IMG/VR virus record: IMGVR_UViG_3300020468_000076
Location: 1 to 23,469 of that record
Source: a virus
DNA length: 23,469 nucleotides
Strand: one strand, 5' to 3'
The translations under genes and the position numbers were made by a program. Positions 1,776 to 23,132 of this stretch are shown here, in pieces. A model generated the notes under the pieces. The model was given only the letters and a program-made list of their open reading frames with translations, had not been told where the DNA came from and did not search any database. The first letter of the stretch is position 1. Each line of letters starts with the position of its first letter.

Positions 1776-2717
1776 ATGAATGATTTTTTGTGGGTCGAGA
1801 GATATCGTCCCGCCAACGTGAGAGAGTGTATTCTTCCTGAGAATACGTCTCAAATGTTTGAAGGTTTTGTTGATCAAGGAGAGATACCTAATCTTCTCCT
1901 AGCAGGACCCGCAGGCATAGGTAAAACAACTATTGCTAAGGCATTATGTAATGAACTGGAAGCAGATTTCTTTGTTATCAATGGATCTGATGAAGGTAGA
2001 TTCTTAGACACTGTAAGAAATCAAGCAAAGTCATTTGCTGCTAGTGTTTCTCTTACATCAAAAGCAAAGCACAAAATTATAATTATAGATGAGGCAGATA
2101 ATTGTACACCTGATGTACAAATGTTATTGCGTGGTAATATTGAAGAGTTCCAGAATGCTTGTAGATTTATATTTACATGCAACTATAAGAACAGGATCAT
2201 CGATCCTATCCACTCACGTTGTTCTGTTGTAGATTTCAACGTCAAAGGAAAAGAGAGAGCACAAATGGCAGCATCTTTCTTTGATAGAGTTAAAACAATT
2301 CTAGATGTAAATAAGATTGAGTATGAAAAGAAAGTTGTAGCACTAATCATACAGAAATACTTTCCAGATTTTAGGAGGACACTAAATGAATTACAGAAGT
2401 ATTCTAGTAAAGGCAAAATTGATACTGGGATTCTTGCTAGTGGTGCAGATCTGGCAGTGGGCGATCTTGTAACCTATCTCAAAAAGAGAGAGTTTACAAA
2501 CATGAAGAAGTGGGTTGTTCAGAACCTAGATAATGAACCTCAGATAATCATGAGGAAGGTATACGACACCATGTATACTTACATGAAACCAAAGAGTATA
2601 CCCGAAGCGGTTCTCATCATAGGTGAGTACCAATACAAATCAAACTTTGTTATGGATCAGGAAATTAATCTGGTTGCATTCATGACAGAACTAATGATGA
2701 GGTGTGAATTTCAATGA
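1776..2717 (+). CDS. 44: Clamp loader large subunit (AAA+ ATPase), gp44
   Basis: A 313-residue AAA+ ATPase that, with gp62, opens and loads the gp45 clamp at primer-template junctions. Visible motifs are the N-terminal LWVERYRPANV box typical of clamp loaders, Walker A AGPAGIGKT (about residues 43-51), Walker B IIIIDEAD (101-108), and the SRC arginine-finger motif (147-149). The C-terminal third is helical and fits the collar domain. Length is close to T4 gp44 (319 residues). There is no strong Shine-Dalgarno sequence at the start, only an AT-rich leader. Its stop overlaps the next start as ATGA. The gp62 partner lies about 1.6 kb downstream instead of directly adjacent. Confidence 0.95.
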   Translation: MNDFLWVERYRPANVRECILPENTSQMFEGFVDQGEIPNLLLAGPAGIGKTTIAKALCNELEADFFVINGSDEGRFLDTVRNQAKSFAASVSLTSKAKHKIIIIDEADNCTPDVQMLLRGNIEEFQNACRFIFTCNYKNRIIDPIHSRCSVVDFNVKGKERAQMAASFFDRVKTILDVNKIEYEKKVVALIIQKYFPDFRRTLNELQKYSSKGKIDTGILASGADLAVGDLVTYLKKREFTNMKKWVVQNLDNEPQIIMRKVYDTMYTYMKPKSIPEAVLIIGEYQYKSNFVMDQEINLVAFMTELMMRCEFQ

Positions 2718-2887
2718 ACTGTTGGCACTGTAACACAGAACTGATTTGGGGTGGTGACCACGATGGTGAGGACTACTGCAATGAAGAATATAATATAGTC
2801 ACTAACCTATCGTGTCCTAAATGTGATGCGTTTGTTTTAGTATACCATTCACCAAAGAAGTGGGACGATGACGATCAAGAAACATAA
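2714..2887 (+). CDS. Small zinc-ribbon protein
   Basis: A 57-residue protein starting at the ATGA overlap with gp44 and ending at TAA 2885-2887. It begins MNCWHCNTELIWGGDHDGED and carries two knuckles, CWHC (residues 3-6) and CPKC (34-37), which could hold one zinc ion, then an acidic C-terminus with DDDD. Proteins with this CWHCxxELIWGGDHD start recur in marine T4-like phages without a defined role. Zinc ribbons of this size usually bind nucleic acid or other proteins, but that is inference. Its end overlaps the start of the oxygenase gene by 20 bases. Confidence 0.8.
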   Translation: MNCWHCNTELIWGGDHDGEDYCNEEYNIVTNLSCPKCDAFVLVYHSPKKWDDDDQET

Positions 2888-3494
2888 TTTATTTCCTACA
2901 ACAGTCTATGAATTTAGACTAGAAGGAGAGGATATGGAAATGATGCATCAGGCACATGAGTTTGCAAAGACTCTAAACATGCAGATGTATAATTTTCCTG
3001 CGGGTGTAAGAACAAGTCGTGGAGATATACACAAAGAAGAACCTATGGAACCTCTATGTGGGTTCTTTGAGGACTGCTTAGACTATATTAGATGTGATCT
3101 TGCACTACAAGTAGAAGCACTTAAAATCTCACTTGCATGGGCAAACTTTGCACCCGCAGGATCAGGTGTAGGACACCCTCTACATCGTCATCCTTACTCA
3201 TACTTGTCTGGTGTATTCTATTTTACAGAGGGTAGTGATACTATCTTCCAAGACCCAGTGGACATTCGTAACCTAGACACACTAGAAATTACCAGAGACC
3301 ACTTTGATGGTCCATTTGAGAGGATAAAAGCAGAACCAGGGAAACTTGTTATATTTCCTGGGTGGTTGAGACATTACAGTGACCCACATGCAGGAAAAGA
3401 AGACAGGTGGTCTATGTCTTTCAATGCATTACCTCATGGTGCTGTCAATGCAGGACCACAAGGTGTACCAATGGCGAGGATACAAGTATTATGA
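2868..3494 (+). CDS. 2OG-Fe(II) oxygenase family protein
   Basis: A 208-residue protein resembling the phage/marine 2-oxoglutarate and Fe(II)-dependent oxygenases that begin with an NLFPTxVY motif (the group catalogued as TIGR02466). Candidate metal ligands lie in HPLHRHPYSYLSGVFYF (His106, His108) and in FPGWLRHYSDP (His169), with an Arg in EDRWSMSFN (Arg180) suited to binding the 2OG carboxylate. Such enzymes hydroxylate proteins, small molecules or nucleic-acid bases; the substrate here is unknown. It sits directly before a DNA adenine methylase, with an ATGA overlap, which makes a nucleic-acid substrate possible but unproven. The start at 2868 gives the family N-terminus and overlaps the zinc-ribbon gene. 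Confidence 0.82.
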   Translation: MTIKKHNLFPTTVYEFRLEGEDMEMMHQAHEFAKTLNMQMYNFPAGVRTSRGDIHKEEPMEPLCGFFEDCLDYIRCDLALQVEALKISLAWANFAPAGSGVGHPLHRHPYSYLSGVFYFTEGSDTIFQDPVDIRNLDTLEITRDHFDGPFERIKAEPGKLVIFPGWLRHYSDPHAGKEDRWSMSFNALPHGAVNAGPQGVPMARIQVL

Positions 3495-4333
3495 GATTAT
3501 TAAAAACTCCACTCAGATACCCAGGTGGTAAATCAAGGGCATGTGTACGTCTATATGACTGGTTTCCTGCTGATATAGATGAGTTCAGAGAACCATTCGT
3601 AGGTGGTGGATCAGTAGCATTATATTTCAGTCAGTTACACCCTGACGTACCAGTGTGGATCAATGATTTATACGTCCCTTTGTACCATTTTTGGATCAAT
3701 TTAAGAGACAGAGGTGATGAGTTAAGTGAAACCTGTTATGATATCAAACTAGATCACCCTACACCTGACCTTGCCAGAGAACTATTTGATAAAAGTAAGG
3801 TAGAAATACAGACAGCAGATAGTTTTAGACAGGCAGTTCTGTTCTGGGTACTTAACAAGTGTAGTTACTCAGGACTAACAGAGAACTCCTCCTTCTCACA
3901 GTCAGCATCAAAGCAGAACTTCACCCTGAGAGGTGCAAATAACCTTAAAAAGTACCAAGAAGTCATATCTAAATGGGAGATCACATGTCTTGACTACACT
4001 GAATGTTTACATGAAGAGGGTGAAAACATATTTCAGTTCTTAGATCCACCATATAAGATAGGATCATACCTATATGGACGTGATGCAGGGTTGCATAAGG
4101 AGTTTGATCATGCTAAATTTGCAGAGGATTGTAAAGATGCAGAAGGTAACTGGATGATAACCTATAACATTGATGAAGAGATCGAAGAAATGTTTAAGAA
4201 CTACAACCAGAGATACTTCTCTATGACATATGGTATGCAACACAGACCAGACAACACTAAGAAAGCAGAACTGTTGATAACAAACTACGACGAAGAACCT
4301 ACGAACCCCTTAGAACAACTACTTTATGGATAA
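3491..4333 (+). CDS. dam: DNA adenine methylase (Dam, D12 class)
   Basis: A 280-residue N6-adenine DNA methyltransferase. Motifs in order are RYPGGKSR (about residues 9-16, start of the SAM-binding region), EPFVGGGS (34-41, motif I) and FLDPPY (183-188, catalytic motif IV, DPPY). The C-terminus carries a KAELLITNY strand typical of D12 enzymes. T4 Dam methylates GATC, but specificity cannot be read here. The frame is open upstream; ATG 3491 is chosen because it overlaps the oxygenase stop (ATGA) and puts RYPGGK close to the N-terminus as in the family. It overlaps gp62 by 8 bases. The likely role is protection from host or competitor nucleases, or marking of phage DNA. Confidence 0.92.
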   Translation: MRLLKTPLRYPGGKSRACVRLYDWFPADIDEFREPFVGGGSVALYFSQLHPDVPVWINDLYVPLYHFWINLRDRGDELSETCYDIKLDHPTPDLARELFDKSKVEIQTADSFRQAVLFWVLNKCSYSGLTENSSFSQSASKQNFTLRGANNLKKYQEVISKWEITCLDYTECLHEEGENIFQFLDPPYKIGSYLYGRDAGLHKEFDHAKFAEDCKDAEGNWMITYNIDEEIEEMFKNYNQRYFSMTYGMQHRPDNTKKAELLITNYDEEPTNPLEQLLYG

Positions 4334-4718
4334 ATTTGAATATTCTCTCACTACATATCTCAATGGCATAAACTTAAAACAAGGTAACATTCAAGACGAT
4401 GAACGTGCCATGAAGAAGTACCCAAAGTTTGTAATAAACAAGTGTATGTCTGACTATATTGACTGTATTATGTACAGTAATGAGATGAACAGATATTATG
4501 AATTAGATAACGATCTTCAATATAATTTTTATCTATATAGTATTAGGAAATCGAAGAGGTTTTCTCCCTGGAATAAAAAATCGACAGATAATGACCTAGA
4601 ACTTGTCAAAAAGTTCTACGGATATAGTACCGACAAGGCACAAGATGCATTGAAACTACTGAGCAAGGGTCAACTTGAAGTCATCAAAGCGAAACTTAAT
4701 GTTGGAGGAAAAAAATGA
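4326..4718 (+). CDS. 62: Clamp loader small subunit, gp62
   Basis: A 130-residue protein starting MDKFEYSLTTYLNGINLKQG. It is placed immediately before regA, where gp62 lies in T4-like phages. gp62 binds the gp44 tetramer to form the clamp loader and has no ATPase motif of its own, consistent with the lack of one here. It is shorter than T4 gp62 (187 residues), as is common in marine relatives. Identification rests on position, size, and features such as the KRFSPWNKK segment and the helical C-terminus. It overlaps dam by 8 bases and regA by 4, so translation is probably coupled. Confidence 0.85.
   Translation: MDKFEYSLTTYLNGINLKQGNIQDDERAMKKYPKFVINKCMSDYIDCIMYSNEMNRYYELDNDLQYNFYLYSIRKSKRFSPWNKKSTDNDLELVKKFYGYSTDKAQDALKLLSKGQLEVIKAKLNVGGKK
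4704..4708 (+). promoter_or_regulatory. Strong Shine-Dalgarno site of regA
   Basis: GGAGG followed by six A residues lies just before ATG 4715, inside the 3' end of gp62. It is the strongest ribosome binding site in this operon. In T4, RegA represses its own and other early mRNAs at the initiation region, so this A-rich start is a plausible autoregulatory target, but a RegA site is not demonstrated. Confidence 0.7.
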
Positions 4719-5134
4719 CTGATGAGATCTCTTGGTCTCAGGATATGATGTTAGAAGTGACTTTGAAGGAACCTGATGACTTCCTAAAAGTCCGTGAGAC
4801 CCTTACTCGTATCGGTGTAGCGTCCCGAAAGGACCATAAACTATATCAATCCTGTCACATATTACACAAAAAAGGCAAGTATTATATAGTACACTTTAAA
4901 GAACTGTTTGCGTTAGATGGGAAACCAGCAAACATCACTAAGAATGATGTTGAAAGACGTAACAGAATTGCTAAGTTACTATTTGATTGGGGGTTAGTAG
5001 ACTTCCAAGCAGAAGAATTAACAGAGGTAGCACCATTGAATCAAATCAAGGTACTATCATACAAAGACAAGGCAGACTGGATCCTTGAATCCAAATACAA
5101 CATAGGCAAAAAGAAAGTAGTAGCAGAAACATGA
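4715..5134 (+). CDS. regA: RegA translational repressor of early genes
   Basis: A 139-residue protein with clear similarity to T4 RegA: LEVTLKEPDDFLKVRETLTR matches EITLKKPEDFLKVKETLTR, and LYQSCHILHKKGKYYIVHFK is almost identical to the T4 LYQSCHILQKKGLYYIVHFK segment. The C-terminus ending near KYNIGK matches KYTIGN. RegA binds the initiation regions of early phage mRNAs and blocks ribosome access, including those of gp45, gp44 and its own. The N-terminus is about ten residues longer than in T4. The start is supported by the GGAGG site and the overlap with gp62. Confidence 0.96.
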   Translation: MTDEISWSQDMMLEVTLKEPDDFLKVRETLTRIGVASRKDHKLYQSCHILHKKGKYYIVHFKELFALDGKPANITKNDVERRNRIAKLLFDWGLVDFQAEELTEVAPLNQIKVLSYKDKADWILESKYNIGKKKVVAET

Positions 5135-6618: not shown

Positions 6619-6806
6619 TGTACTCTCAATCAACCAATCTTGAATCAGCATTCTACCTCTACGCTAAGAGAGTAGAAGCACTTCACGCTATGGTTATGGG
6701 AAAGAAGTTAGATGCAGAAGAAGCATACAAACACCTTAAAATAGAGCGAAAAGCACTAAAAAAGGTGTACAAAAAACATAAACGAACTGAATACGACAGA
6801 CATTGA
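6618..6806 (+). CDS. Small basic hypothetical protein
   Basis: A 62-residue, highly basic helical protein (for example LKIERKALKKVYKKHKR near the C-terminus). It is coupled by TAATG to the gene before and by an overlap with the TTG start of the carbamoyltransferase after. Its charge would suit nucleic-acid or membrane-surface contact, but no family is recognised. Confidence 0.7.
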   Translation: MYSQSTNLESAFYLYAKRVEALHAMVMGKKLDAEEAYKHLKIERKALKKVYKKHKRTEYDRH

Positions 6807-8248
6807 AATTCTTAGGATTAAGAATTGATGATCATGATTCCAACATTACATATACTGATGGTAAAACAGTAAAGTATTGTGCAACTGAGCGTCTTTTCGG
6901 CATTAAACACCATGGATACGATAACATTTGGCAGTGGTCAGATGTACTAGATTCTTGGGGTGTAAAATTGAGTGACATAGATGCTATTGCATTGATCACA
7001 GACAACATAGTATTTGCAGAGAACGAAAATTATAGAGATTTAGACTTAGGACTGCCATGTAAGACGTATGCAGTCGACCACCACTGGGCACATGTGTTGA
7101 GCACATGGATGCTTGGTGACATACCCAAGGTAAACTATGTGTTTGATGGGTTTGGGAACAATGATAGGTCACATTCACTGTATTTGAACGGTAAATTAAA
7201 GAGTTCACACAGTGTCAAGAAGACTGGTTCTATCGGTGTTGAAATGGCATATGTAGGTAAGACTTGTGGGTTCACAGCAGACGAGTGGGGACTAGATTTA
7301 GCAGGAAAAGTGATGGGATTGCAGTCATATGGCATGAATGAACCCAACTACTATAACCTGATGGATCAGTATAGTATTGAAGAGATCAAACAAATCTGGA
7401 ACTATGACTCTTGGATTAGAAAATGGGATAATGAGTTCGATATTAACTGGTTACGCACCGTACATGAGATAACTGGTGACAAACTGGTAGAGTACATGAC
7501 TCGCACTGGTGATGGACCTATAACATATACTGGTGGTGTAGCACAAAACTCTGTATTCAATGGAAAACTGCATGAATCAGGCATAGATGTACGAATTCCA
7601 CCTCATGCTAACGATTGTGGACTATCACTAGGTGCAGTAGAATTTTTAAGACAGAAGTTCCATGAAGAACCCTTCGATACTACTGGGTTTCCCTTCTGGC
7701 AGGACGATGAAGCACCCGAAGAACCCACTGATAAGACCATTACAGAGGCAGCGGAGTCACTTGCACAGGGTAAAATCGTTGGTTGGTACCAAGGTCATGG
7801 TGAGATAGGTCCAAGAGCACTAGGACACCGTTCTATCCTTGTAAACCCCAGATTACCGAACGCTAAGAACCATTTGAACAAACAGGTCAAGCATAGAGAA
7901 CACTTCCGACCCTTCGGTGCTGCGGTACTACTGGAAGATACACAAAAATACTTCGAGTTTAACGGTAAGAGTCCATATATGAACACATGTGCATACGTTC
8001 ACGACGAAGAATTGTTGTCTGTGACACATGTAGATGGCAGCAGTCGCATACAAACAGTGGAGGGTGATGATTGTTTCGCTAAGTTGCTTCGTAAGTACAA
8101 AGAACTGACAGGTGACTCTGTTTTACTCAATACATCACTGAATATGGGTGGTAAACCAATAGCATCTAAGATGTGGGAAGCGAAAGAACTGTTCTCTAAG
8201 AAGGGAATTGAAGATATGTTTATTGGAAATGATAAATTGTCTAAATAA
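6803..8248 (+). CDS. Carbamoyltransferase (NodU/CmcH/TobZ family)
   Basis: A 481-residue ATP-dependent O-carbamoyltransferase. The family converts carbamoyl phosphate plus ATP to carbamoyl-adenylate and transfers the carbamoyl group to a hydroxyl, usually on a sugar or secondary metabolite. The N-terminal Kae1-like domain shows the VDHHWAHVLSTW metal motif (His93, His94, His97) and GGVAQNSVFNGKL (about 244-256). The C-terminal domain shows GWYQGHGEIGPRALGHRSIL (327-346), FRPFGAAVL and SVLLNTSLNMGGKPI. It is shorter than typical bacterial members (about 550-600). The start is TTG 6803, because the GLRIDDHDSN strand that opens the fold begins right there and no upstream ATG exists. The acceptor in phage infection is unknown; host glycans or modified bases are possible. 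Confidence 0.92.
   Translation: MKFLGLRIDDHDSNITYTDGKTVKYCATERLFGIKHHGYDNIWQWSDVLDSWGVKLSDIDAIALITDNIVFAENENYRDLDLGLPCKTYAVDHHWAHVLSTWMLGDIPKVNYVFDGFGNNDRSHSLYLNGKLKSSHSVKKTGSIGVEMAYVGKTCGFTADEWGLDLAGKVMGLQSYGMNEPNYYNLMDQYSIEEIKQIWNYDSWIRKWDNEFDINWLRTVHEITGDKLVEYMTRTGDGPITYTGGVAQNSVFNGKLHESGIDVRIPPHANDCGLSLGAVEFLRQKFHEEPFDTTGFPFWQDDEAPEEPTDKTITEAAESLAQGKIVGWYQGHGEIGPRALGHRSILVNPRLPNAKNHLNKQVKHREHFRPFGAAVLLEDTQKYFEFNGKSPYMNTCAYVHDEELLSVTHVDGSSRIQTVEGDDCFAKLLRKYKELTGDSVLLNTSLNMGGKPIASKMWEAKELFSKKGIEDMFIGNDKLSK
8241..8247 (+). promoter_or_regulatory. Possible late promoter (CTAAATA)
   Basis: CTAAATA overlaps the carbamoyltransferase stop and differs by little from the T4 late -10 element TATAAATA. 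In T4 geometry transcription would begin around 8253, 17 bases before ATG 8270. The same string occurs before the gene at 23153 and, within CTAAATATAG, before hsp20. T4-like late promoters have no -35 element, so the support is thin and the motif is AT-rich enough to arise by chance. Confidence 0.35.
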
Positions 8249-15699: not shown

Positions 15700-16709
15700 G
15701 TTTTCTAAAAGATATCGTAAAAGATATTGGTAATGAGTATGCAGGCATCGTTAGTGATGGTGTATCAGCAGGAGACGTGCAGTCTTTTATTGACACAGGA
15801 AGTTATGTGTTTAATGCAGTAGTTTCTGGGTCTATCTTTGGTGGTCTACCCTCTAATAAGATCACTGCTATCGCAGGAGAGTCTAGTACAGGTAAGACAT
15901 TCTTTTGTCTAAGTGTAGTCAAGCATTTCTTAGAGACAAACCCTGATGCAGGAGTTGTATACTTCGAGTCAGAGTCTGCCATCTCTAAGGATATGATTGA
16001 GTCCAGAGGTATAGATTCTAATCGTATGATTATAGTTCCTGTTGTAACAGTACAGGAATTTAGACAACAAGGAATCAAGATTATTGATAAATACTTGGCA
16101 CAGAAGGAAGAGGATCGTAAACCTCTAATGTTCTGTCTTGATTCTTTGGGTATGCTTTCTACTTCTAAGGAAGTCGATGATACTGAACAAGGTAAAGACA
16201 CCAGAGACATGACCCGAGCACAGGTTGTCAAGTCTATCTTCCGAGTTCTGACACTGAAACTAGGTAAAGCAAACGTACCTATGTTAGTTACTAACCACAC
16301 CTATGACGTGGTTGGATCTTATGTTCCCATGAAAGAAATGGGTGGTGGAAGTGGTCTTAAATATGCAGCAAGTACAATCATCTATCTCTCTAAGAAGAAA
16401 GAGAAAGATGGTACAGAAGTGATTGGTAATATAATCAAATGCGAGACTAAGAAGTCTCGATTCACTAAGGAGAATGTTAAAATTGAAACACGTTTATTTT
16501 ATGATGAACGCGGATTGGACAGGTACTTCGGACTTCTGGAACTGGGTGAGAAACATGGAGTCTTTGAAAGAGTTGGTACTCGTTATCGTATTGGTGAAAG
16601 TAATGTCTTCGCTAAGTCTGTTCTTGCTGATCCGAGCAAATACTTTACAGAAGAAGTAATGGAGAAGTTAGATGCAGCAGCACAAAAAGAGTTTACCTAT
16701 GGATCTTGA
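15696..16709 (+). CDS. uvsX: RecA-like recombinase UvsX
   Basis: A 337-residue strand-exchange ATPase of the RecA/UvsX family. Walker A is GESSTGKT (61-68), Walker B is LMFCLDSLG (about 144-152), and VTNHTY plus [19 protein letters not shown] mark the L1/L2 DNA-binding part of the core. UvsX coats single-stranded DNA and drives recombination-dependent replication and repair. It is directly after gp43 and before gp41, the order seen in T4-like cyanophages. The start overlaps gp43 by 4 bases (ATGA). Confidence 0.95.
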
Positions 16710-17265
16710 CAAGTACATCAAAGTATACGATAATGCACTTGATGTAAATCTATGTCGCAATATCTTATCTGCATGTAAGAATGTTGAAATGAAAAGGTGG
16801 GACCGTGGTGGTCGTCCACAGTTCAATGAGTTCAACATTACTGAGCACGCAGAGAACAAAGATCTTCCAGATGATGATGTCTGGAATATCATACACAATC
16901 AAGTCATCCAAGCAGTCAAAGATATATCTAACAGATATATGGAAGAGGTCGGTTGCCAACAGCAATGGCCATACTCAAATGCTTTGGAACAAGTCAGACT
17001 GAAACACTATCAGGTAGATCAGAATGACAGATTTGATGAGCATGCAGACGTGGGAGACCATGCATCTGCTCGTAGATTTCTCGCAATGTTTTTCTACTTA
17101 AATGATGTAGAGAAAGGTGGTGAAACAAAGTTCGAGCATCGCTCGATCAAACCAGTTCAAGGTAGATGCCTAGCATTTCCTCCTATGTGGATGTTCCCAC
17201 ACGCAGGAGTAGCACCTATAACTGATGACAAATACATTATTGGAACCTATTTACATTACGTTTAA
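16672..17265 (+). CDS. 2OG-Fe(II) oxygenase, prolyl 4-hydroxylase type
   Basis: A 197-residue P4H-like dioxygenase. The iron ligands are visible as the HxD pair in DEHADVGD (His124, Asp126) and a distal His in [10 protein letters not shown] (His177). Lys187 (DDKYIIGTY) would hold the 2-oxoglutarate carboxylate. [17 protein letters not shown] and GRCLAFPP are classic P4H segments. Substrate unknown; phage members may hydroxylate proteins, with inference only. The start at 16672 has GGAG (16661-16664) 7 bases upstream; a second ATG at 16699 is the alternative and gives a shorter overlap with uvsX. It is inserted between uvsX and gp41. Confidence 0.92.
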
Positions 17266-19420: not shown

Positions 19421-20734
19421 ATGGGAACGACACTAACCTCAGCAGCAGGATGGCAGAAGTATTCTTGGTATTACAAGGATGGATTCTCCTGCAATATAAA
19501 GAAAGATTTACATGTATATAAAAACGAGAAAGGGAATGATAAAGTAACCTATCTTAAAAAAGGACACCAGATAACTACAACACCGATACTAACTGGTCAA
19601 CCATCCAGAGTACATATAACCTTCGCAGAGAACATGGAAACTCGCGAAGGTTTTGTGCAGTTAGGACAACTTGGTGCAAAACCAGGTCAGATATTAAAAC
19701 AGAATTTAAAACCACAAGACTTTGCTATGCCACTTGATAAGAAGGTGTCATTCAACAAGTATTATAATGGTGTGATGTCAGCAATAGGGGAGAGAAAAGA
19801 TCTTCCTGACCCCATAACAAATTATCTAAGAGCATTGGTGAAATATTGCTATGAACATAAGGATCATCAGAACTTAAAAAAGAAATACAAGAAACTTATG
19901 GACTCTCAGTATGCGGGTACGATCAGTGAGATTGAATCAGACTTCTCTGAGATCATGGCACCTCTATGTGTACTAGAAAGAGGTCAAAGAGAGTTAGAGA
20001 AGATGGGATTCAAAGGGTTGACCAAAGAAAACACAATGATATATGTACCCAAGAAAGGTAACGAACCATTGATGGACTTTGCACTGTATGGTAAGGATGG
20101 TAGAGAGTATAAGTTCTCAGTTAAGAAAGCAACTGGTGTTACTAACACAGTCAAACCAAAAGATATAATAAAATTGATGGAAGACCTGACAAAAATATAC
20201 GAAGGTAAAGATAATTATGAGATACTAAAAGTCTTAGCAGAGAATAGTATCAAACTAGGACCAATCTATGCATTCAAAGAGGCATATAAGAGGTTTGAAC
20301 AAGTGCAGAATAAACTTAAACAGGCAGGGTTAGTCTGGAACATAGACATGATGATACCAGACAATGTTGTGCCAGATGTATTAGTGTACCAACCACAGTG
20401 GACAAAGGTTATGTCTGTATATTATAATGAAGGTATAGATTACTGGGAACAACCAGACTTTACAGATGGTCCACTAGGAGTCGTAAGTTTAACTTGTCAA
20501 ACAGCGTTGGAGAAAATGACCAAGGGAGAGAAGTTGTGGAACTATCGTGACATCATTGTTGATGTTGTAATGAAGCAAGTATCTTTCTATAAATTCAAAC
20601 TTAATAAAGGTGACCCTGAGTTCTTTATGTCAAACAATCTATATAATGATATACCAAACAACGCACAGTTCTATTTGCGTAACAAGTCATCTAAGAGCAG
20701 ACCATACAGAGAGACAGTCGGAGTACAACCATGA
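19421..20734 (+). CDS. Large unknown protein, possible PD-(D/E)XK-like core
   Basis: A 437-residue protein I cannot name. The N-terminal about 90 residues look like an SH3-type beta region (WYYKDGFSCNIKKDLHVYKN, then VTYLKKGHQITTTPILTG). The middle has a helix with Glu177 (IESDFSEIM), then PLMDFALYGKDGREYKFSVK, where Asp219, Glu229 and Lys235 could form a PD-(D/E)XK-like metal site followed by a KATGVTNTVKP loop. This is a pattern match only. The C-terminal part (VPDVLVYQPQWTKVMSVYYN) is mixed alpha/beta. It overlaps the ligase-like gene by 4 bases. Only 11 bases separate it from the previous gene. Confidence 0.8.
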   Translation: MGTTLTSAAGWQKYSWYYKDGFSCNIKKDLHVYKNEKGNDKVTYLKKGHQITTTPILTGQPSRVHITFAENMETREGFVQLGQLGAKPGQILKQNLKPQDFAMPLDKKVSFNKYYNGVMSAIGERKDLPDPITNYLRALVKYCYEHKDHQNLKKKYKKLMDSQYAGTISEIESDFSEIMAPLCVLERGQRELEKMGFKGLTKENTMIYVPKKGNEPLMDFALYGKDGREYKFSVKKATGVTNTVKPKDIIKLMEDLTKIYEGKDNYEILKVLAENSIKLGPIYAFKEAYKRFEQVQNKLKQAGLVWNIDMMIPDNVVPDVLVYQPQWTKVMSVYYNEGIDYWEQPDFTDGPLGVVSLTCQTALEKMTKGEKLWNYRDIIVDVVMKQVSFYKFKLNKGDPEFFMSNNLYNDIPNNAQFYLRNKSSKSRPYRETVGVQP

Positions 20735-21924
20735 GCAAGAATACACACCTCGAACATTTGGAAGATGATATATTTAACGATGGATATAATGGTGCACTGA
20801 ATGGCATCAACTTCTTAAACTCACTTGTAGATATGTTGACCACTGGTAAAGGTGGAAGCAACACAAAGGTTACAGTTAAATGGGATGGTGCTCCTGCTAT
20901 TATATGTGGTACAGATCCTGAGTCTGATCTGTTTTTTGTAGGAACTAAATCAGTATTCAATAAGAATAACCCAAAGATATGTTACTCACATGATGACATT
21001 GATTCTTTCTATGAAGGTGAGTTAAATGATAAGTTAAAGAAATCATTTGATCATCTATCACAGTTAGATATCAAGGGTGTGATACAAGGTGACCTCCTCT
21101 ATACAGAGACACCTCCTATCGTTACCATGGGTGGTAAGGTATGCTATAAGTTCAAACCTAACACTATCACATACTGTGTAGAGAAGAATACAGAAATGGG
21201 AAAGAAGGTAGGACACTCTGACATAGGTATAGTATTTCATACAAGATATACTGGCACCACTATTGGCACCATGACAGCAGGATTTGGTGTAGATGTATCA
21301 GGTATGCAAAATAATAAACTGATAGCAGTGTTCTCGTCTGCATTCTCTAATGTAAATGGAGTTGCAAACTTAACACCAACAGAACTATCAAGTGTAAAGA
21401 ATGATATTAGAATGGCAAAGACTAATCTACTACGCTCTAAGACATTCTTAAATGCAATAGGTGGTGGTACAAAACCATTTAGTTATGCTGCTATGTTCAA
21501 GAAGTATATAAACATCTTAGTCAGACAGAATAGTATCCCCGACAGTGCAGAGAAGATGGCAAAGGGTTACATATACTATGTTGAGAAAGAATTTGGTAAA
21601 GAAATTGATAAGAAAAAGAGTGAGAAAGGAAAAGAAACATGGCAAAAACAGAAGAAAGAGAATCTAACTTATCTAAATAGTAACAAGAGTGTCATTTTCT
21701 CTGCCCTTACTGGATTCAAACTGTTGATGAAAGCAAAGGTTAAGATTATAAATAAATTGAAGAAGATAGAAGGTGTCGGCACGTTCCTTGAAGACGAGGA
21801 TGGATACCGAGTTACAAGTCCAGAAGGATTTGTTGCTATCAAAGATGGTTCAGCAGTCAAATTAGTTGACAGACTTGAATTCTCTCGTGCAAACTTTACT
21901 GTGGCAAAGAATTGGTCTAAATGA
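20731..21924 (+). CDS. Ligase-like nucleotidyltransferase (DUF6267-type)
   Basis: A 397-residue protein with, by eye, the motif series of covalent nucleotidyltransferases (DNA/RNA ligases, capping enzymes). Motif I is VKWDGAPA (Lys50 as the nucleotidylated lysine, KxDG), motif III GVIQGDLLYTE (116-126), motif IIIa IGIVFHTRYTG (165-175), motif IV EGFVAI (365-370), and motif V AVKLVDR (375-381). The start HLEHLEDDIFNDG and the following sequence match a widespread phage family that I think is catalogued as DUF6267, of unknown function. The reaction (ligation, capping or other) is inferred and not shown. A Lys-rich insert (about 285-345) separates IIIa from IV. It is coupled by ATGA to both neighbours. 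Confidence 0.85.
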   Translation: MSKNTHLEHLEDDIFNDGYNGALNGINFLNSLVDMLTTGKGGSNTKVTVKWDGAPAIICGTDPESDLFFVGTKSVFNKNNPKICYSHDDIDSFYEGELNDKLKKSFDHLSQLDIKGVIQGDLLYTETPPIVTMGGKVCYKFKPNTITYCVEKNTEMGKKVGHSDIGIVFHTRYTGTTIGTMTAGFGVDVSGMQNNKLIAVFSSAFSNVNGVANLTPTELSSVKNDIRMAKTNLLRSKTFLNAIGGGTKPFSYAAMFKKYINILVRQNSIPDSAEKMAKGYIYYVEKEFGKEIDKKKSEKGKETWQKQKKENLTYLNSNKSVIFSALTGFKLLMKAKVKIINKLKKIEGVGTFLEDEDGYRVTSPEGFVAIKDGSAVKLVDRLEFSRANFTVAKNWSK

Positions 21925-23132
21925 GATTTCGTCAGTTCATCATAGAGGCAGAAACGCCTAAGAAGAAACCTACATCCTCTGCTAAAAAGCAAGAGGTGCA
22001 GGATAAGCACGTCGCATTTACCTTTGGACGATTCAATCCTCCTCATGCAGGACATGGTAAGATGATGGACGCAGTGAAATCATATGGTGGAGACACAGGT
22101 AATTACAGAATCTATCCTAGTAGAACACAAGATAATAAGAAGAACCCACTGTCAGCAGACCAGAAGATAAAGCACATGCGTGCAATGTTTAAAGACCATA
22201 AAGACAAGATTCAGAACAGCGAAGCACATAGAAATATATTTGACATCATGAAAGACCTTAACGATGAAGGTCATGAGCATGTAACCATGGTAGTTGGTGA
22301 CGATAGAGTCAAGGAGTTTGATAAACTCACCAAGAAATACAATGGAGTGCACTATGACTTCAAGAGTATTAATGTTAAGTCTGCTGGTAAACGTGATCCT
22401 AAGTCTGATGATCCTTTGGAAGCACTGAGTGCAAGTTCTTTGCGTAAGCATGCTACAAGTGGGGACCATGAAGCATTCCATGCTGGGACTGGTGGATATA
22501 AGAACAGTAAACAGATGATGGCAGACGTCCAAGCAGGACTAACACCAAAACAGAAAGCAGAGAAGGCAGCGAAGAAAGCGAAAGCAAAGTTAAGTACAGC
22601 AACAGGTACAAAAGAAAAGACAGTCAAGGAAACATGGGAGTATGCTCCTAAGTTAGCACTAGAAGAGTTCAGAGAGCACTATATTCAAGGTGAACTATTC
22701 GATACTGGTACACTCATAGAGCATGACAACACAGGTATTAGAGGTCACATAGTACACAGAGGAACTAATCATGTCATATTCAAGGACGAGTATGGTGATG
22801 AGTTCAAGGCATGGTTGGGAGACATTACAGAGATAGCAATGAAGACCGACAAGAAGGTTCCACTAGGACGTAAGAGTAATCCATATGGTAAGCGTGCAGT
22901 ATTGAAGATGCTTATCAAGTCAGTAGCAGAGAGAGAAAGATCCAGAGCAGGAGTAGCAAAGGAAAGTACAGACCCCAACAGGAAAGATCAGAGTAATTAC
23001 AGTGCAGACGATGGGTCAGGTAACGATTGGAAAGTAGGAACGGATAAATATAGACAGGCAGTACAGTCAATGACCCCTGGACAGGGAGTCATTAAGTTTT
23101 CTGAGTTCAGAAAGACTGTCAAAACTAAATAG
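21921..23132 (+). CDS. HxGH nucleotidyltransferase with capsid-targeting-like N-terminus
   Basis: A 403-residue protein. Residues 30-175 look like an HxGH-type adenylyl/cytidylyltransferase: AFTFGRFNPPHAGHGKMMDA carries HAGH (42-45), VGDDRV is a later strand, and ALSASSLRK (168-176) resembles the ISxTxxR phosphate loop of NMNAT-like enzymes. The first residues MRFRQFIIEA closely resemble the T4 internal-protein capsid-targeting sequence MKTYQEFIAEA, and IIE fits the gp21 protease site (I/L-x-E). A Lys/Ala-rich linker (about 208-235) leads to a C-terminal beta domain (GTLIEHDNTGIRGHIVHRGT) and a tail KFSEFRKT. The substrate (NMN, a nucleotide or other) cannot be told. It overlaps the ligase-like gene by 4 bases. 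Confidence 0.85.
   Translation: MRFRQFIIEAETPKKKPTSSAKKQEVQDKHVAFTFGRFNPPHAGHGKMMDAVKSYGGDTGNYRIYPSRTQDNKKNPLSADQKIKHMRAMFKDHKDKIQNSEAHRNIFDIMKDLNDEGHEHVTMVVGDDRVKEFDKLTKKYNGVHYDFKSINVKSAGKRDPKSDDPLEALSASSLRKHATSGDHEAFHAGTGGYKNSKQMMADVQAGLTPKQKAEKAAKKAKAKLSTATGTKEKTVKETWEYAPKLALEEFREHYIQGELFDTGTLIEHDNTGIRGHIVHRGTNHVIFKDEYGDEFKAWLGDITEIAMKTDKKVPLGRKSNPYGKRAVLKMLIKSVAERERSRAGVAKESTDPNRKDQSNYSADDGSGNDWKVGTDKYRQAVQSMTPGQGVIKFSEFRKTVKTK
23125..23131 (+). promoter_or_regulatory. Possible late promoter (CTAAATA)
   Basis: CTAAATA overlaps the stop of the preceding gene, and in T4 geometry transcription would start near 23137, 16 bases before ATG 23153. This matches the arrangement at 8241. It lacks an exact TATAAATA and could be chance in AT-rich DNA. 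Confidence 0.35.

Follow-up and report, generated by a model that had tools for sequence, protein, structure and literature searches.

Conserved motifs and predicted fold place DUF6267 of T4-like cyanophages among candidate minimal enzymes of the polynucleotide-ligase superfamily

We analysed a stretch of 23,469 nucleotides from a virus (IMG/VR record IMGVR_UViG_3300020468_000076, positions 1 to 23,469; hereafter the window) and focused on one gene within it, a member of the protein family DUF6267 (Table 1). Conservation and predicted structure together indicate that the DUF6267 protein is probably a divergent, minimal lysyl-AMP covalent nucleotidyltransferase of the polynucleotide-ligase superfamily; DUF6267 is a new divergent family of this known superfamily. 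Its most likely job is to seal nicks during replication and recombination of phage DNA, which we rate as an even call, and RNA joining ranks next, as an appreciable but lesser possibility. T4-like cyanophages count among the most abundant viruses in the ocean, and DUF6267 is a structure-supported, near-universal candidate for the ligase missing from their otherwise T4-like replication set. If this is true, the ligases would gain a new minimal family with a link to an NMNAT-like enzyme, and a family listed as unknown would have its function.

The window protein matches PF19782 over the full profile (positions 1-376 of 376) at 421.6 bits against a curated cut-off of 27, and it matches phrog_455 with E 2.5e-120. 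The first-pass annotation of this DNA had described the family as generally unannotated in phages, and so it is: Pfam lists it as DUF6267 and PHROG 455 as 'unknown function', and we found no use of either name in the literature searched. The gene is a single intact open reading frame (ORF) with an ATG start, has a GGAG 7 nt 5' of that ATG, and encodes 397 amino acids (aa).

Five motifs of the covalent nucleotidyltransferases had been read from this protein, and we find all of them in the expected order: I (KWDG, residues 50-53), III (GDLLY, 120-124), IIIa (VFHTRY, 168-173), IV (EGFVAI, 365-370) and V (VKLVDR, 376-381). Motif V has Arg381 as its second basic residue and so is not a KxK. By itself the series is modest evidence, since comparable ordered series arose in 1,356 of 200,000 shuffles of the window protein (~0.7%) and it is thus only moderately improbable. 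What takes it beyond chance is conservation together with the fold. For conservation, homologues were gathered from IMG/VR, isolate phages and genome contigs and clustered at 80% identity, giving 169 rows including the window, and residues were counted on the 167 rows with letters. D52, K73, D121, Y173, E365, G366, K377 and R381 are kept in 167/167, and K50, G53 and H170 in 166/167. Lys50, Asp52, Gly53 and Glu365, for which the first-pass annotation had proposed a conservation check, thus stand at 166, 167, 166 and 167 of 167, with no sign of poor conservation. The invariance is centred on the catalytic residues (the nucleophile Lys and the acidic metal ligands) and holds down to ~25% identity. 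Between motifs IIIa and IV lies a helical insertion that is strongly reduced in natural short forms of ~300-325 aa. Two residues within this variable helical region, N261 (codon at window 21511-21513) and K336 (codon at 21736-21738), are also invariant in all 167 homologues, short forms included.

We predicted structures with AlphaFold2 (AF2) for the window protein, from a 93-row alignment (predicted local distance difference test, pLDDT, 83.2; predicted template modelling score, pTM, 0.74), and for a short form of the phage Bellamy type, from an 82-row alignment (pLDDT 93.6, pTM 0.88). In the window model K50 ends one strand, D121 lies within another, E365 begins a strand and K377 is in the strand that follows it. 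Foldseek with this model against the PDB gave nothing significant, and coiled-coil and CorA noise ranked top; this failure is probably caused by the long helical insertion (residues 216-344). With VIA-align, the first 23 rows for the same model were RNA or DNA ligases, the best being the Naegleria gruberi RNA ligase NgRnl (Z 8.3, 3.8 Å, 180 residues). For the short-form model, the top 15 Foldseek matches in the PDB were all ligases, with a best E of only 0.015, and 50/50 listed VIA-align rows were DNA, RNA or tRNA ligases: NgRnl was best (Z 8.7, 3.7 Å, 182 residues), and others included T4 Rnl1 (Z 7.9), T4 Rnl2 (6.9), TbREL1 (6.8) and human DNA ligase 1 (~6.0). A single row at Z near 8 could be chance, but a whole list from one superfamily, combined with invariant catalytic residues, is very unlikely to be. 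The nucleotidyltransferase (ATP-grasp-like) fold is present in both predicted models, which supports the earlier superfamily call. RLIG1 and capping enzymes were not among the 50 listed VIA-align rows for either model, which excludes neither. It could be argued that the motifs fell into line by chance in a protein of an unrelated fold, given that shuffles reach the pattern in a small fraction of trials and that no ligase is matched at sequence level. Residue conservation and two models with ligases as structural neighbours make such a coincidence extremely improbable.

In this superfamily the nucleophile lysine becomes adenylylated. In DUF6267, Lys50 would attack the alpha-phosphate of ATP (or NAD+) to form lysyl-AMP, with D52, D121, E365 and K377 as the expected metal (Mg2+) and phosphate ligands, His170 and Asp121 orienting the ribose, and Lys73 filling the motif Ia role. 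AMP would then be transferred to a 5'-phosphate, and a 3'-OH would seal the break. This is the catalysis that we infer, along with the cofactor and substrate discussed below.

NgRnl (PDB 5cot / 6vt3) is the best structural match to the short-form model, and the residues mutated according to its entry titles, K170, D172, E227, E312 and K326, are the motif counterparts of K50, D52, D121, E365 and K377 of DUF6267. The two differ in that identity is 12-14%, NgRnl has ~140 extra N-terminal residues, and its motif III has Glu where DUF6267 has Asp. The VIA alignment of the short form sets model residue 1 on NgRnl 142 and model residue 3 on Rnl1 73. In the short form the two N-terminal His residues would lie near NgRnl residue 149 (R149A is among the matched entries), and they may take part in leaving-group orientation. 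To our knowledge, neither the helical insertion nor the N-x-H-L-x-H-x-E-D motif of DUF6267 has been described in NgRnl. The nucleotidyltransferase domain is shared with T4 Rnl1 (PF09511) and T4 Rnl2 (PF09414) as well, but their extra domains are absent from DUF6267, the insertion differs, and there is no family-level sequence match. T4 gp30 and the other ATP-dependent DNA ligases (PF01068) share the fold too, with archaeal DNA ligases as the Foldseek top matches. Compared with these enzymes DUF6267 is much smaller, without an OB-fold (the oligonucleotide-binding domain) or motif VI segment, and their occurrence is largely complementary.

These likenesses raise the question of whether DUF6267 is an RNA repair ligase, for example for tRNA or mRNA cut by host defence nucleases, rather than a replication enzyme. 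The closest folds, NgRnl, T4 Rnl1, TbREL1 and T4 Rnl2, are all RNA ligases, and the minimal size and motif IIIa His recall RLIG1, a minimal ligase that lacks an accessory domain for RNA binding, that joins RNA, not nicked DNA, and whose DALI top match is also NgRnl (PMC11494293). In the RLIG1 of Yasminevirus, His195 of motif IIIa contacts the ribose (PMC11494293). Compared by description only, RLIG1 (C12orf29) and Yasminevirus RLIG1 share with DUF6267 the KxDG motif, the His in motif IIIa and a single motif V Lys, but RLIG1 has Glu in motif III and no sequence match to DUF6267. Against RNA repair stand the distribution and position of the gene. Repair ligases tend to occur sporadically, whereas DUF6267 is near-universal in T4-like cyanophages: T4-type polymerase was found in 376 'Synechococcus' and 61 'Cyanophage' records and DUF6267 in 371 and 61, records being counted by the first word of their names and not matched one by one. 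Moreover, both the window and several relatives have DUF6267 inside the replication block. The end-healing phosphatase PNK3P was above cut-off in 0/23 DUF6267-positive records, but this test is insensitive, as T4's own PNK3P also fell below the cut-off. On balance we regard RNA repair as possible but clearly not the first choice.

The same 23 DUF6267-positive records (13 isolate genomes and 10 long IMG/VR contigs, which are possibly incomplete) were surveyed for other ligases. We found one ATP DNA ligase (in S-CRM01) and one Rnl2-type ligase, and no NAD ligase or Rnl1-type ligase. Conversely, a DNA ligase is present and DUF6267 absent in T4, KVP40, Aeh1 and cyanophage B23. It is because the family is near-universal, sits in the replication block and belongs to phages in which other ligases are rare that we lean towards DNA nick sealing. 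A 2010 review noted that homologues of gp30 (g30) were not found in cyanomyoviruses and gave unrecognised distant homologues as one possibility (PMC2984593). The Rnl2-type ligase, of 341 aa, is encoded on a 156,877-base IMG/VR phage contig together with DUF6267, so that both can coexist. The ligase gene of Synechococcus phage B23, which has no DUF6267, is 67% identical to that of S-CRM01. Among genome contigs, DUF6267 matches were mostly in marine contigs of metagenome-assembled genomes (MAGs); these are probably phage contigs, and we did not adopt the view that DUF6267 is a cellular gene.

Several results weigh against DUF6267 being the replicative ligase, or a ligase at all. At the sequence level, phmmer and hmmsearch against PDB sequences gave no ligase match. 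The window protein searched against Pfam up to E 1 matched PF19782 alone, with no match to PF01068, PF01653 or the Rnl1, Rnl2 or RLIG1 families, and Pfam and NCBIfam scans of 93 family members gave only scattered chance matches. The profile-profile comparison that the first-pass annotation had proposed came back without a significant ligase link when we ran hhalign against T4 Rnl1, Rnl2, gp30 and a Rnl2-like profile. The registers of these alignments, at insignificant scores, do follow the motifs: motifs IV-V for Rnl1, where EGFVAI-KL is placed on EGYVAV-KI, and motifs I/Ia/III for the Rnl2-like profile, where KIDG / FVGTKSVFNK / VQGDFIG falls on KLDG / FGACSRNFEKK / LQGELIG. This second alignment, made with family alignment A4 and of weak score, sets the QGD of motif III on the QGE of Rnl2-like ligases. 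In a control of DUF6267 profiles against 39 T4 ORFs, Rnl1 ranked second with alignment A2 and first with A4, but the scores were within noise, and we did not take this ranking as evidence of homology. The superfamily assignment is thus supported by the predicted structures, with sequence similarity beneath detection.

The structural and distributional evidence has weaknesses of its own. Matches of Z 8 to 9 are moderate, and for the short form in VIA-align the nearest folds are RNA ligases rather than DNA ligases. Neither model has an OB-fold or motif VI segment after motif V; the chain ends ~16 residues later with one helix. The moderate Z scores and the lack of a reported activity would also fit a non-catalytic nucleotide- or nucleic-acid-binding protein that has retained the fold, but invariance that sits exactly on the catalytic residues, down to low identity, makes this highly improbable. 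The freshwater phage S-CRM01 carries DUF6267 plus a canonical ATP DNA ligase (HQ615693.1, 142786-143664), and a strict mutual exclusion of DUF6267 and canonical ligases was rejected for this reason. DUF6267 is missing from S-TIM5 and S-CBWM1, and so are matches to PF01068, PF01653 and PF09414; a cyanophage can therefore manage without them. Finally, the 2010 review favours the host ligase as the explanation for the missing gp30 (PMC2984593).

Downstream of DUF6267 in the window is an NMNAT-like gene, from which the first-pass annotation had suggested ATP or NAD as cofactor. The neighbour is real and recurrent: it is found 3' of DUF6267 in 150/170 testable long-form loci, 111 of which have it no more than 500 bases away, and in only 33/150 testable short-form loci. 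S-PM2 encodes both as one fused protein of 591 aa (DUF6267 at 5-398, CTP_transf_like at 414-554). An older S-PM2 record, from 2005, has the first half of this protein, DUF6267, split into two ORFs by a frame change, and the same in-frame junction; the split is probably a sequencing frameshift. The split form lies in locus L084 (AJ630128.1) at 2995-4774, and the single fusion in L396 (LN828717.1, a deletion mutant) at 2495-4270. A viral structure library holds further DUF6267-like proteins of ~600 aa, one of them named cytidyltransferase-like. Since the neighbour is recurrent and sometimes fused, it is likely that the two genes are functionally linked in the long-form clade. The neighbour alone does not tell which of ATP and NAD+ is the cofactor of DUF6267. 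According to one cyanophage paper, cytidyltransferases are frequently found in virion proteomes (PMC10665884).

This linkage is also the main argument for an active lysyl-AMP enzyme that seals no strand and instead modifies an end or a protein with its NMNAT-like partner, by adenylylation or by capping with NMN (nicotinamide mononucleotide) or NAD. Beyond the insertion, no accessory nucleic-acid-binding domain was recognised in DUF6267, which also speaks for this reading. Yet the low count among short-form loci makes a linked partner dispensable, and the structural neighbours are ligases; we consider this alternative unlikely. Among the activities that had been proposed earlier, ligase, capping and end modification, polynucleotide ligase is the best reading and capping has no specific support.

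Resemblances to NAD+-dependent LigA (PF01653) comprise a KxDGxA-like motif I, weak Foldseek matches to its adenylation domain, and the NMNAT-like neighbour. We considered LigA membership for the motif and the neighbour and rejected it, as there was no profile match; likewise none of the Ia, OB, zinc, HhH and BRCT domains of LigA was recognised in DUF6267 by profile. It is tempting to speculate that DUF6267 and its overlapping or fused partner form a two-enzyme machine, in which an NAD+-using DUF6267 ligase releases NMN, the NMNAT-like enzyme re-adenylylates it, and the pair serves T4-like cyanophages as their replicative ligase, although we hold this full scenario to be a long shot. We know of no previous description of such a cofactor-recycling ligase.

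Table 1. Positions in the window of the DUF6267 gene, its sequence features and the adjoining genes.
Feature	Position	Strand	Basis
DUF6267 / phrog_455 gene, predicted ligase-type covalent nucleotidyltransferase	20731..21924	+	PF19782 E 4.6e-126 over residues 4-393
N-terminal motif N4-T-H6-L-E-H9-L-E11-D12, near-invariant, family-specific	20740..20766	+	H6 165/166, H9 165/166, E11 164/166, D12 164/166
Motif I KWDG, predicted nucleophile Lys50	20878..20889	+	Conservation; end of strand 45-50 in model
Motif Ia-like FVGTKS, Lys73	20935..20952	+	K73 167/167
Motif III QGDLLY, Asp121 replacing usual Glu	21085..21102	+	D121 167/167; inside strand 117-124
Motif IIIa VFHTRY, His170 and Tyr173	21232..21249	+	H170 166/167, Y173 167/167
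Helical insertion between motifs IIIa and IV, residues 216-344	21376..21762	+	Model secondary structure, alignment
Motif IV EGFVAI, Glu365	21823..21840	+	E365, G366 167/167
Motif V VKLVDR, Lys377 and Arg381	21856..21873	+	K377, R381 167/167
Upstream ORF, 437 aa, ATGA-overlapping	19421..20734	+	No Pfam match; seen in only 28 loci
NMNAT-like (HIGH-superfamily) nucleotidyltransferase gene, ATGA-overlapping	21921..23132	+	PF01467 E 8.9e-9; weak NMNAT family matches

The window is a portion of the replication block of a T4-like phage; among isolates, Synechococcus phages S-SZBM1 and S-WAM1 come closest to it. Upstream of DUF6267, on the same strand, are genes for the gp45 clamp, gp44 clamp loader, gp43 polymerase, UvsX, gp41 helicase and MazG. 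The DUF6267 gene shares an ATGA overlap with both of its neighbours, the preceding 437-aa ORF and the NMNAT-like gene, and the three genes are therefore probably translationally coupled. We rejected a conserved three-gene unit, as so few loci hold the 437-aa gene; different large unknown ORFs occupy its place in other phages. Elsewhere in the window, a 333-aa protein encoded on the - strand at 10020-11021 matches phrog_848 (unknown function) and has no Pfam match. The replication block also contains two distinct 2-oxoglutarate (2OG)-Fe(II) oxygenase genes (16672-17265 and 2868-3494), one between uvsX and gp41 and the other preceding a gene for a D12-class adenine methyltransferase, and a Nol-like carbamoyltransferase gene (6803-8248), possibly for base or surface modification.
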